Shown one piece after another: positions 18,041 to 21,880 of a DNA stretch of 21,880 nt (within the stretch, counting starts at the first letter, position 1; the number at the start of each line of letters is the position of its first letter). The stretch is taken from the IMG/VR virus record IMGVR_UViG_3300023184_000574, positions 1-21,880 of that record. One strand, written 5' to 3'. Source of the DNA: a virus. The notes under the pieces were generated by a model. It had not been told where the DNA came from, did not search any database, and saw only the letters and a program-made list of their open reading frames with translations. Position numbers and translations under genes: made by a program.

Positions 18041-18396
18041 TTCAACCCTTTGACGTACGGAAAAAATGCTTGAGTAACCACAATTTTTTCCAACTTGCTT
18101 TGGTTGTGCAGTTTTTGCAACCGCGTTTGTAGAAATTCAGCTTTGCAAAAGTCGCCGCTAATAATGCCTTCGACCCACATAGACACTGAAAGATCAACGC
18201 ACCACTTGCCATACGCAAATCCATTTCGGCTCTTGTCTACGCGGCCTTCGCCCCGAGACTCCCAGTCAAACAGATCGCGCAACGCTTTCTCACTAAAGTC
18301 TAGCCCGCTGACGTTTTGGCTTCGGGCAACGCGCCGGTAATGCGCGGCTCTGAGAGCGTATTTTTTTGAGATGCCGTTTAGTTTAAATAGCTTCAT
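18037..18396 (-). CDS. Unknown phage protein directly after the helicase (119 residues)
   Basis: A 119-residue basic protein: 'KYALRAAHYRRVARSQNVSGLDFSEKALRDLFDWESRGEGRVDKS', then 'NGFAYGKWCVDLSVSMWVEGIISGDFCKAEFLQTRLQKLHNQSKLEKIVV'. I do not recognise a named family. The first third is Lys/Arg-rich and helical. The ATGA overlap with the helicase stop and with the next gene places it firmly in the operon. A helper role for the helicase is conceivable from position only. Confidence 0.7.
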   Translation of the reverse strand: MKLFKLNGISKKYALRAAHYRRVARSQNVSGLDFSEKALRDLFDWESRGEGRVDKSRNGFAYGKWCVDLSVSMWVEGIISGDFCKAEFLQTRLQKLHNQSKLEKIVVTQAFFPYVKGLK

Positions 18397-19730
18397 TTCA
18401 ATTCTTCCATTGCAATATCCGACACCGCCCGCTTGTCATGTAAGGCGGCAAAAATTTTCTCATCCACAGTTTTGTTGGTCAGCATCACGTAGCACCACAC
18501 AGCGTGTGTTTGGCCTGAGCGGTGCAAACGACCAATGGTCTGTTCGTACAACTCCAGACTCCACGGCAGGGACAGAAACACCATGTGACACCCACCGTGC
18601 TGAAGGTTGAGCCCGTGGCCGGCTGACTTTGGATGGACGGCCAGTAGCCTGACTTGTCCAGCATTCCATCGCTCAATGGCTCGGTCGTCGTCAAGAGTTG
18701 TGGGGTTGAACCGGCGCTTGAGCTCGGCGAGCTCTTCCTGGTACTGGTAAACAATAATGGTATTTGCGTGCTGGTTTTCATCAAGCAACTCCTCCAAGCG
18801 ATCAAATTTGTGCGGGCTAAACCACACCGGCGTCTGTGTGACAATGAACTTGCCGGGTGTTTCGGAGGCTTCCTTGCGTGTGTCGTACACGAACCCGCTG
18901 GCCATTTGTTGCAGCTTGCTGGTCACCACGCCCGCATTTATCGCAGTGACGTCCAGCGCTTGAAAGTCCTTCTTCATCTTTTCGTAGGGCTTGCGGTCGC
19001 TCAAGTCGCAACGCACCTCGACGACGTGCAGCGGGGGCAGCTTGTCTTTGTATTCGCCTGGCTCCAACACAAACGTCGCCGGCTTGATCTTGTCCATGAC
19101 CTTGGCCAGCGAGCCAACCCGTGGCGCCCACTCGCCAAACTCCTTGTTGATCAGCACAAAATACTGTTGCATGAACGCGCCCTTGGCGCGGCCCAGCAAC
19201 GTCTGGTCAACGATCTTGCACTGGCCGAAAACGTCCTCCAGGCCGTTGCTGGTGAACGAACCGGTCAGGCCCCAGCGAATGGGCACGTCTTTAATGATTT
19301 TGTCAAACGCTTTAAAGCGTGCGCCTGATGGGTTCTTAAGTTTGGTGAGCTCGTCAAACACCAGCCCGTCTACAGGCAAGCCATCGCCAGTAACGTCGCA
19401 CAGCCCGGCCAACCATTGCAAGTTGTCGTAGTTGATGACGATTACGTTGGCGTCGCTGCTGAACACATCGTTGCGCTGCTTAGGCGTGCCCACCGCTATG
19501 GCCAGCTTTAAGTGTTTGCTCCACTTGGCGGCTTCGATGGGCCACACGTCGGTACAGACGCGCTTGGGTGCCACAACCAACCAACGCTTGACGTGGCCGT
19601 CTTTGATCATGGCGTCCATGGCGGTCAGCGTGATGGCCGTCTTGCCAGCACCCACTGGCGCCAGCACCATGGCGCGGTCGTGTTCAAACAAAAAGTCAGC
19701 GGCCTGCTCTTGGTAGGGACGCAGTTTCAT
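18393..19730 (-). CDS. SNF2-family helicase/translocase
   Basis: A 445-residue superfamily 2 ATPase of the phage SNF2 type. Motifs in order: LRPYQ (residues 3-7); Walker A APVGAGKT (24-31); motif II FDELTKLKN (125-133), with DELT in place of DEAH as is usual in this phage group; motif III LTGS (155-158); motif IV TIIVYQ (324-329); motif V SAGHGLNLQ (369-377); motif VI QTIGRLHRSGQ (398-408), the arginine-finger motif of Snf2 proteins. It should use ATP to move along or remodel duplex DNA. Phage SNF2 genes commonly neighbour a VRR-NUC gene, as here, and belong to replication or recombination modules. GAGG precedes the ATG, which overlaps the upstream stop (ATGA). Length is typical for phage versions. 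Confidence 0.93.
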   Translation of the reverse strand: MKLRPYQEQAADFLFEHDRAMVLAPVGAGKTAITLTAMDAMIKDGHVKRWLVVAPKRVCTDVWPIEAAKWSKHLKLAIAVGTPKQRNDVFSSDANVIVINYDNLQWLAGLCDVTGDGLPVDGLVFDELTKLKNPSGARFKAFDKIIKDVPIRWGLTGSFTSNGLEDVFGQCKIVDQTLLGRAKGAFMQQYFVLINKEFGEWAPRVGSLAKVMDKIKPATFVLEPGEYKDKLPPLHVVEVRCDLSDRKPYEKMKKDFQALDVTAINAGVVTSKLQQMASGFVYDTRKEASETPGKFIVTQTPVWFSPHKFDRLEELLDENQHANTIIVYQYQEELAELKRRFNPTTLDDDRAIERWNAGQVRLLAVHPKSAGHGLNLQHGGCHMVFLSLPWSLELYEQTIGRLHRSGQTHAVWCYVMLTNKTVDEKIFAALHDKRAVSDIAMEELK

Positions 19731-20176: not shown

Positions 20177-20499
20177 TTTTTAAATCCAAAAAAAGTATCC
20201 AAGTGAATTACGCCGTCGCACCACCACAGGAAATGCTCCAGCCAATACGCGGCAGCGTCGTCGCCGGCAACTAAGGCGCGGTCGCAGTAGTCATTGATCT
20301 TTGTTGCAGCCGTGTGCAAATGGCACAAAGCGGCAACGTAATCTTTATCTTCAAGTGCTCCTTCGTGGGCCAATCGGTAATTTGACTGAGATGCCGCAAG
20401 CGTGTGTTTGTCAAACGATGGCCTCCACGCTATGTGTTGGCCCATCGACGTACATCGTTTGAGACATCGCCGAATTGGTTCAAAATTTCGCCCATCCAT
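20173..20499 (-). CDS. Unknown helical phage protein after the nuclease (108 residues)
   Basis: A 108-residue protein, MDGRNFEPIRRCLKRCTSMG... with a helical C-terminus 'DKDYVAALCHLHTAATKINDYCDRALVAGDDAAAYWLEHFLWWCDGVIHLDTFFG'. The His/Asp-rich helices are suggestive of a metal-binding bundle, but I cannot name a family. The ATG at 20499 is chosen because GGAG lies 7 bases upstream. A longer frame to 20529 has no ribosome site and lies inside the nuclease gene. It overlaps the nuclease gene by 20 bases and the next gene at ATGA. Confidence 0.7.
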   Translation of the reverse strand: MDGRNFEPIRRCLKRCTSMGQHIAWRPSFDKHTLAASQSNYRLAHEGALEDKDYVAALCHLHTAATKINDYCDRALVAGDDAAAYWLEHFLWWCDGVIHLDTFFGFKK

Positions 20500-20749
20500 C
20501 AATTTGCTCCTTAGTCCACAAACACGCATAGCGCTGGTTCAGCAACGCCATGTCCGACATAAACATCTTCTGCAAAGGCGACAACCTGCCGCCCTTGGTC
20601 TTCAACTCCACAAACCATGTGCTGCCATCAGGCAGGCAGGCGATCCTGTCAGCCACACCTTTGCGCCCAGGCGAGGTGAACTTCCACGTCTTGCCGCCCA
20701 TGCGTTCCACAGTCCAGACGAAGTATTTTTCGATTTCTTTTTCAAGCAT
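20480..20749 (-). CDS. VRR-NUC domain nuclease
   Basis: An 89-residue stand-alone VRR-NUC nuclease of the PD-(D/E)XK superfamily. Readable active-site parts are 'GRKGVADRI' with D34, 'FVELKTKGG' with E48 and K50, and 'LSPLQ' with Q60, all in canonical order. Full length is typical of the phage stand-alone form, which is thought to cut branched or structured DNA during replication or recombination. It is the first gene of the long minus-strand operon that also encodes the SNF2 helicase, a familiar phage pairing. No Shine-Dalgarno is present. The ATG lies about 8 bases below a predicted extended -10 box, so the mRNA may be leaderless. Confidence 0.92.
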   Translation of the reverse strand: MLEKEIEKYFVWTVERMGGKTWKFTSPGRKGVADRIACLPDGSTWFVELKTKGGRLSPLQKMFMSDMALLNQRYACLWTKEQIDGWAKF

Positions 20750-20756
20750 GTCAAAA

Positions 20757-20789
20757 AGTTTAGCACACTTTTATTTTTTGTGCTACAGT
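20757..20789. promoter_or_regulatory. Face-to-face divergent promoters built on an inverted repeat
   Basis: The 68-base gap between the divergent operons holds a perfect 7-bp inverted repeat, TAGCACA (20761-20767) and TGTGCTA (20779-20785), with an 11-base AT-rich spacer. Each arm forms most of an extended -10 box facing outward: TGTGCTACAGT on plus (20779-20789, hexamer TACAGT) and TGTGCTAAACT on minus (20767-20757, hexamer TAAACT). At 17-base spacing the -35 position of each promoter falls on the other's arm (TAGCAC, a poor -35). Expected starts are near 20796 (plus) and 20750 (minus). It may also serve as an operator for a dimeric regulator. Confidence 0.6.
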
Positions 20790-20817
20790 CAAGGCTCATT
20801 AACTAAAGGAGATTTAA

Positions 20818-21099
20818 TTGAAGATCAAAACCACAATCCACATTCACTATTGCAAATACGCATGGGAAGACAGAGGCGAATACGAAGCCTATAGCTGCAA
20901 ACTGGAAGATACCGACGCGCGCTTCTACATTGGCGAGCAAAAAATTGTGCTTGAAGTGCCAGATGACTTTGACCCACGCGCCCGGCAGATCGCCGCTTTG
21001 GAGGCCGAAAAGAAACGGGTTATGGCCAGCTACCAAAAGAGGGTCACCGAAATCAACGACCGCATCAGCAAACTGCAAGCACTGGAGTACACAGCATGA
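20818..21099 (+). CDS. Conserved phage early protein with coiled-coil tail, TTG start
   Basis: A 93-residue protein: 'KIKTTIHIHYCKYAWEDRGEYEAYSCKL' (beta strands), 'DARFYIGEQKIVLEVPDDFDPRARQIAALEAEKKRVMASYQKRVTEINDRISKLQALEYTA'. The 'VPDDFDPR..QIAALEa.k..v.a.yq.rvteI...IseLqaLE' end is familiar from early genes of many phages. Its role is unknown. The C-terminal half should form a coiled coil. The start is TTG at 20818 with a strong AAAGGAG at 20805-20811. It is the first gene of the rightward operon below the divergent promoter. The stop overlaps the next start (ATGA). Confidence 0.8.
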   Translation: MKIKTTIHIHYCKYAWEDRGEYEAYSCKLEDTDARFYIGEQKIVLEVPDDFDPRARQIAALEAEKKRVMASYQKRVTEINDRISKLQALEYTA

Positions 21100-21386
21100 A
21101 ACATCTTCTTCTGACTTTGTTGGCCGCTGCCACAGTAGCGCACGCCGACAACTTTGCCGAAACCGACAACCAAGCGGGCGGCAAAATCACCATAATGACC
21201 GACGTGTGCGAGGCTGACAAAAATCTGTCCCGCGCTTACTTCTACACCCGTGACGGGCTGACTGAAGAGGGCTGCTGGAAATACGACGCTGAAACAATCG
21301 TCATCGTCTGGGAACGCCAGGGCAAGCGTCGCTATCCCATCAACATGTTCTCGCTCATGGGCGGGTATCGTAAATTTAAAGGTTGA
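21096..21386 (+). CDS. Small exported protein with signal peptide
   Basis: A 96-residue protein with a clear signal peptide: 'MKHLLLTLLAAATVAHA' and predicted cleavage after AHA (residue 17). The mature part has 'NQAGGKITIMTDVCEAD', 'RAYFYTRDGLTEEGCWKYDAETIVIVWERQGKRRYPINMF' with two Cys (C40, C62) that could pair in the periplasm. This small secreted type is frequent in proteobacterial phages, with no known role. It could act on the envelope of the infected cell. It sits between an early cytoplasmic gene and a nuclease, so it should be made early. The start overlaps the previous stop (ATGA). Confidence 0.78.
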   Translation: MKHLLLTLLAAATVAHADNFAETDNQAGGKITIMTDVCEADKNLSRAYFYTRDGLTEEGCWKYDAETIVIVWERQGKRRYPINMFSLMGGYRKFKG

Positions 21387-21388
21387 AC

Positions 21389-21880
21389 ATGCAGCACAGT
21401 AACATCGTCGGCGGCTCGACCGCCAAGCGCGTCATCAACTGCCCAGGCTCCGTGGCCTTGGTGCAAAAAATGCCGCCCCAGCCCAGCAACAAATACGCCG
21501 ATGAGGGCACGCTGTTGCACAACGTCATCGCCGACATTGTGATGAGCGACAACCCGCCAGAGCACTATCTGGGCACCAAGTACGAAGACCAAGTGCTCAC
21601 GCAAGAGTTGATTGATAACAAGCTCAAAGTGGCCATGGCCGCGCTTGATGAGATCGACCCGACCAAGGAGATGGAAATTGAAGCTGAAACACGCGTTGGG
21701 TTTGGTGATTTGCTCCCTGGTGTGTTCGGTAGTACTGATCTTATTGGTCGGAGTGGACAACGCGCTGTCGTTTTGGATTGGAAGTTTGGCGATGGTGTTA
21801 TGGTTGACGTGGTGGAAAATCCGCAGTTGATGTTCTACGCCGCAGCGGCCATGCGCACTGAAGCCGCCAAGTGGGCCTTT
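21389..21880 (+). CDS. DUF2800 nuclease, RecB/Cas4-like (partial, runs off right edge)
   Basis: The first 164 residues of an open frame that leaves the window. It begins 'MQHSNIVGGSTAKRVINCPGS', a typical DUF2800 opening. Nuclease motifs of the RecB/Cas4 PD-(D/E)XK group are readable: GTLLH with H44, GSTD with D117, LDWK with D130 and K132, and Q146-LMF-Y150 (the QxxxY motif). The family is thought to be a recombination exonuclease, often followed in phages by a DUF2815 single-strand binding protein and a DNA polymerase. The ATG is 2 bases after the previous stop, with a weak AAAGG upstream. The frame is intact to the last base. Confidence 0.9.
   Translation, partial: MQHSNIVGGSTAKRVINCPGSVALVQKMPPQPSNKYADEGTLLHNVIADIVMSDNPPEHYLGTKYEDQVLTQELIDNKLKVAMAALDEIDPTKEMEIEAETRVGFGDLLPGVFGSTDLIGRSGQRAVVLDWKFGDGVMVDVVENPQLMFYAAAAMRTEAAKWAF

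Follow-up and report, generated by a model that had tools for sequence, protein, structure and literature searches.

What a short, perfect inverted repeat does between two diverging gene blocks is the question raised by the window, the whole 21,880-base virus contig analysed here, which comes from a freshwater phage and encodes a P22-type coat gene. The leftward block comprises an endonuclease, two genes of unknown function and an SNF2 helicase, and the rightward block comprises two small genes leading to DUF2800 (Table 1). The blocks diverge at a 68-bp gap, where a 46-bp stretch holds both predicted promoters. Within this stretch, TAGCACA (20761–20767), an 11-nt spacer and TGTGCTA (20779–20785) are symmetric about base 20773, and the coordinates, arms and spacer agree exactly with those given by a sequence-only reading of this DNA. 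As a full explanation of the gap, we consider two overlapping divergent promoters of the host sigma70 type highly probable. As part of that whole reading, and with the same high probability, the repeat would be a by-product of two similar TGTGCTA boxes facing in opposite directions, not an operator. The window nuclease was named by PHROGs but not by Pfam or NCBIfam profiles, and its homologue in Staphylococcus phage QT1 bears the annotation ‘VRR-NUC domain’.

Table 1. Coordinates of the features at the divergent locus in the window.
Feature	Position	Strand	Basis
SNF2-type DNA helicase, leftward block	18393–19730	-	PF00176, PF00271, phrog_62
First leftward gene, 89-aa VRR-NUC-like endonuclease	20480–20749	-	phrog_93 endonuclease, E 1e-24
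Nuclease ATG, predicted leftward transcription start (leaderless mRNA)	20747–20749	-	-10-to-ATG distance, no Shine-Dalgarno (SD) site
Leftward extended -10, TGTGCTAAACT; hexamer TAAACT at 20762–20757; includes left arm of the repeat	20757–20767	-	Sequence and conservation
A/T-rich inter-arm spacer, CTTTTATTTTT	20768–20778	.	Length 11 in most relatives, otherwise 12, 6 or 1
Rightward extended -10, TGTGCTACAGT; hexamer TACAGT at 20784–20789; includes right arm of the repeat	20779–20789	+	Sequence and conservation
Predicted rightward transcription start region	20796–20798	+	Inferred, 7–9 nt past the -10 hexamer
SD site AAAGGAG of the rightward transcript	20805–20811	+	Sequence; conserved AAAGGA(G)-type site
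First rightward gene, 93 aa, TTG start	20818–21099	+	ORF with SD; phrog_2479 (unknown function)
DUF2800/PD-(D/E)XK exonuclease-like gene, rightward block, runs off the window	21383–21880	+	PF10926, E 1e-23

Nuclease queries against IMG/VR and GTDB genomes found 320 loci in addition to that of the window; many shared a contig. When the stretch between -60 and +40 relative to the nuclease start was compared and duplicates were merged, 114 distinct sequences remained. The arrangement of overlapping start signals was kept in more than 100 related sequences. Two promoter classes were distinguished: class I, the type of the window, with 78 gap sequences and 33 distinct cores, and class II, with 31 distinct cores. 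All conservation counts are drawn from metagenomic, mutually related phages and are not independent. Genome-wide profile and repeat searches used 26 long relatives, all of which contained DUF2800 diverging from the nuclease (from strand and locus orientations). Some nuclease relatives lay on small contigs of metagenome-assembled genomes (MAGs) assigned to Armatimonadetes (L162), Mucilaginibacter (L166) and Betaproteobacteria/Burkholderiales (L163–L165, L167); these are most likely phage contigs placed in bacterial bins and do not fix the host.

Taken by itself, the inverted repeat is statistically weak and unremarkable. Of dinucleotide-shuffled versions of the 68-bp gap, 14% carried a perfect 7-bp inverted repeat with a spacer of 0–20 (1.2% when the arms were required to hold at least three G/C), and the window contains 42 inverted repeats with at least three G/C per arm. 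This particular repeat has no second copy in the window, even at three mismatches. It gains significance only because it is conserved once per genome at the nuclease–DUF2800 junction: a search with spacers of 1–20 matched 14 of the 26 long related genomes at a single place each, and the matched sequences were the gap between these two genes.

The conserved element appears to be promoter sequence. The two arms complete extended -10 boxes, TGTGCTACAGT on the plus and TGTGCTAAACT on the minus strand, as the sequence-only reading had proposed, and these boxes are under selection. Extended -10 promoters follow the pattern TRTGn-TAnAnT, with tolerated positions. The class I rightward box reads TGTGCTAYAGT, and T-15, G-14, T-12, A-11 and T-7 are unchanged in all 33 distinct cores; G-16 is replaced by A in eight and C-13 by A, G or T in six, and the bases found are T, C or A at -10 and G, A or C at -8. 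With the TRTGn-TAnAnT form, the TG at -15/-14 and the key hexamer bases T-12, A-11 and T-7 constrained in this way, the variation matches the tolerance pattern expected of an extended -10 sigma70 promoter. The leftward box is invariant in the same 33 cores except at -13, which is changed in two. In the window both hexamers match the consensus at 4/6 positions and the -35 matches are weak, with the sigma preferences of the host assumed; a simple consensus promoter scan of the window listed neither extended -10 site. That scan also offered a leftward TTGACA-18-AAAAAT (20754–20725; 10/12), which was rejected because its start would lie within the nuclease gene.

Of the 78 class I sequences, 63 have the arms 11 bp apart and 13 have them 6 bp apart; single sequences show 12 bp and 1 bp. 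The identity of the -35 hexamer shifts with this spacing, so neither class I promoter would rely on a conserved -35. An alignment of the gap across relatives, proposed earlier to see whether both arms and the 11-base spacer are conserved, thus bore out the arms in class I, but not a fixed spacer, nor a left arm in class II. Three oddities on single contigs may be assembly errors. At L079, the A/T spacer found 90 nt before the nuclease ATG has the opposite orientation (GTTTTATTTTC in place of GAAAATAAAAC) between flanks that match close relatives, and looks flipped through the inverted repeat. At L220, on a contig shared with L303, the arms are 1 bp apart and the -10 boxes 10 bp closer, possibly through an assembly error. 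The third, L020, is described below with the rightward leader.

On the leftward side, the -10 keeps a nearly constant distance from the coding sequence. In the window, 7 nt separate the hexamer from the nuclease ATG, and 105 of 114 gaps have a leftward -10 at 6–7 nt from it. The best leftward -10 occupied this position in 37 of 39 class I cores (shuffles: mean 2.3, maximum 9) and in 28 of 31 class II cores (shuffle mean 1.8), the distance being the same in both classes despite different hexamers. No SD 4-mer was found within 20 nt of the leftward start in any of the 70 cores of classes I and II. Because the -10 stands 6–7 nt from the ATG and the SD is absent from these 70 cores, the leftward nuclease mRNA is probably leaderless; a -10 ending 6–8 nt before an AUG that has no SD is the sequence signature of leaderless genes. 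At L102/L153, an XF1762-family gene (NF045478) is the first leftward gene, and its ATG again lies 7 nt past the box; this gene, 416 nt before the nuclease, overlaps the nuclease start region. At L106/L196, the nuclease ATG is changed to ATC, and an N-terminally extended nuclease begins downstream after an SD-like AGGAAAG.

The rightward transcript would be SD-led. In 101 of 114 gaps an SD-like site on the right is followed by an ORF; these ORFs fall into 12 unrelated first-gene families, the most numerous of them starting like DUF2800. Genes have therefore been replaced repeatedly just beyond the promoter and SD, and the position immediately 3' of the rightward ribosome-binding site, with its roughly one dozen unrelated first genes, is a mosaic breakpoint. 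At L020, the rightward -10 is fused directly to the interior of the right-hand gene with loss of the SD and start codon; its leftward promoter is intact.

Class II relatives are without the leftward arm and keep an overlapping promoter pair. Their predicted leftward promoter combines a -35 with a -10 (e.g., TTGTCA-16-TATTAT, TTGTGC-16-TATACT), and the rightward -10 is retained, usually in extended form. The two promoters share a -35, in that leftward TTGTCAA is rightward TTGACAA (e.g., L038, L166, L248 and L293). Of the 29 cores scored, 28 have the two -35s sharing 3 nt or more, and eleven cores combine rightward TTGACA with leftward TTGTCA or CTGTCA; the TTGTGC and TTGTAC forms are poor matches to the -35 consensus, and their assignment as -35 is weaker. 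Loss of one arm had been named in the sequence-only reading as an outcome that would count against it. The left arm is indeed gone in class II, but a shared--35 overlapping pair replaces it. By eye, TGTGCTAAACTTTTTGAC of class I can be aligned well with TGTGCAAAACTTTTTTAC of class II. The leftward box of the former class and the -35 of the latter therefore probably descend from one ancestral stretch of DNA, with ca. 16 bp probably lost or gained ahead of the ATG. In the nuclease tree the promoter classes cluster, and at least two changes are forced for class II, with rough support from a short gene.

The predicted starts, at ca. 20749 leftward and ca. 20796–20798 rightward, lie about 47 bp apart in the window, and the -10 hexamers (20757–20762 and 20784–20789) are separated by 21 bp. 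Predicted start distances are about 36–47 bp in class I and about 61–65 bp in class II. These starts diverge, and the description of the promoters as face-to-face has to be replaced by back-to-back. The overlap itself was described correctly: in class I each -35 region lies on the other promoter's -10, in class II both -35s are the same bases, and at the level of sequence this geometry of overlapping occupancy is conserved in relatives. Because the -10 and -35 regions of the pair coincide, only one promoter would be occupied at once, and steric exclusion is likely to be conserved, since class II keeps an overlapping pair after losing the left arm. Each class I promoter would act through its extended -10, with no conserved -35, and a polymerase on one would cover the -10 of the other. 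The leftward promoter would start at or adjoining the A of the nuclease ATG, giving a leaderless nuclease–helicase mRNA, and the mRNA of the rightward promoter, covering the DUF2800 replication block, would be SD-led; as firing is divergent, elongating polymerases would not collide. We infer promoter activity, start sites, steric exclusion and leaderless translation alike from sequence.

Such exclusion might suggest a true either/or switch, in which one operon is transcribed early and shuts off the other until a signal arrives. This is the built-in choice between operons that the sequence-only reading had envisaged, and the probable exclusive occupancy, kept across two promoter architectures, would suit it. 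However, a polymerase quits its promoter fast, so exclusion alone yields alternation, not choice, and both blocks hold DNA metabolism genes that are plausibly needed together. In E. coli bidirectional promoters, polymerases bound in opposite orientations do exclude each other, but the basal activity of the five tested was too low for interference; when one side was made stronger, the other was repressed (PMC12825309). Strong phage promoters could fall in this latter regime. A search for regulators with HTH_3, the only such profile used, found none in the 26 long relatives, and the only lysogeny marker searched, phage integrase PF00589, was likewise absent from them; controls matched in both searches, and a temperate control region was discarded on these grounds. 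The T7-type RNA polymerase profile PF00940 had no match in the 26 relatives, and its control likewise matched nowhere. The built-in choice is thus not supported and was rejected for lack of evidence, and a switch of this kind appears improbable. That the family maintains exclusive promoters as such, in two architectures, with alternate firing balancing the leaderless against the SD-led transcript, is a speculative and rather unlikely extension.

The symmetry had also been taken as a good dimer operator, that is, a site for a dimeric phage or host repressor controlling both operons. Perfect 7-bp symmetry between divergent operons is what such a site would present, and its overlap with the promoters would work well. 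The arms, however, differ in 18 of the 33 class I cores with a matched change in none, and arm distances of 11, 12, 6 and 1 bp, with spacer shifts of 5 and 10 bp, would turn the half-sites by half or whole turns. These uncompensated changes and the variable spacing argue against an operator, as do the single site per genome, the lost left arm of class II and the lack of HTH_3 and integrase matches in the 26 long relatives, and we consider it decidedly improbable. The same arm changes, together with the 1-bp spacer of L220, break the stem-loop design that would be needed if a DNA or RNA hairpin, acting as a bidirectional terminator or replication origin element, were the selected feature. An inverted repeat with an A/T loop between divergent operons invites that idea, but the repeat precedes both predicted starts and would not be transcribed, and we give the hairpin almost no credence. 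There is also little likelihood that the repeat arose by chance in an A/T-rich gap, with only the rightward promoter real and the left gene served from elsewhere. Its frequency in shuffled gaps and the mere 4/6 match of TAAACT would allow this; against it, 78 gap sequences retain both TAAACT and its spacing from the ATG, class II has a better promoter (e.g., TTGTCA-16-TATTAT) at an equal distance, and the unrelated XF1762-family gene has the same start geometry.

Two overlapping divergent promoters therefore remain our preferred reading, and they resemble several known systems in part. Among phage genes, lambda cI, whose promoter is PRM, offers a comparison for the leftward side. Its leaderless mRNA likewise begins at or close to the AUG, lacks an SD and has a -10 located 6–8 nt upstream of the AUG (PMC9031893); unlike cI, the phage nuclease comes first in an operon for DNA metabolism, across from an operon that is SD-led, an arrangement kept across the family. 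The closest annotated genome, Podoviridae sp. ctNMl277 from Manatee Spring (MW202483.1), also has a nuclease and SNF2 helicase diverging from a gene at the DUF2800 position, with a P22-type coat and portal, but its nuclease is 63% identical and its 63-bp gap, with TTGCACAA, fits neither promoter class clearly. Plasmid pLS20 Pr/Pc are likewise overlapping back-to-back promoters of divergent genes (PMC4207663); in pLS20 a tetrameric regulator and DNA looping also take part, whereas the HTH_3 search found no regulator in the phage family. A literature search returned nothing apt on divergent promoters with a shared -35 or on phage back-to-back or extended -10 pairs. In bidirectional promoters as defined by Warman, a -10 is shared and divergent starts lie 7–25 bp apart, with 10, 18 and 23 common (PMC10268837). 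The window falls outside this definition, with two separate -10 hexamers and starts predicted ca. 47 bp apart. As in the Warman/Grainger promoters (PMC12825309, PMC10268837), symmetry would give two exclusive orientations of sigma70 polymerase at one short site and divergent RNAs, but those promoters share one -10 and the phage has two extended -10 boxes or a shared -35. Bidirectional bacterial promoters have been recognised through shared -10 symmetry, and this phage family would supply other natural geometries between the same gene blocks, namely pairs of extended -10 boxes at distances of 1, 6, 11 and 12 bp, plus a shared -35. With such a series one could ask whether selection maintains the exclusive binding of polymerase or whether it merely follows from genome compactness, and the leaderless side opposite the SD-led side would be a simple natural pair for testing phage protein ratios from one site.
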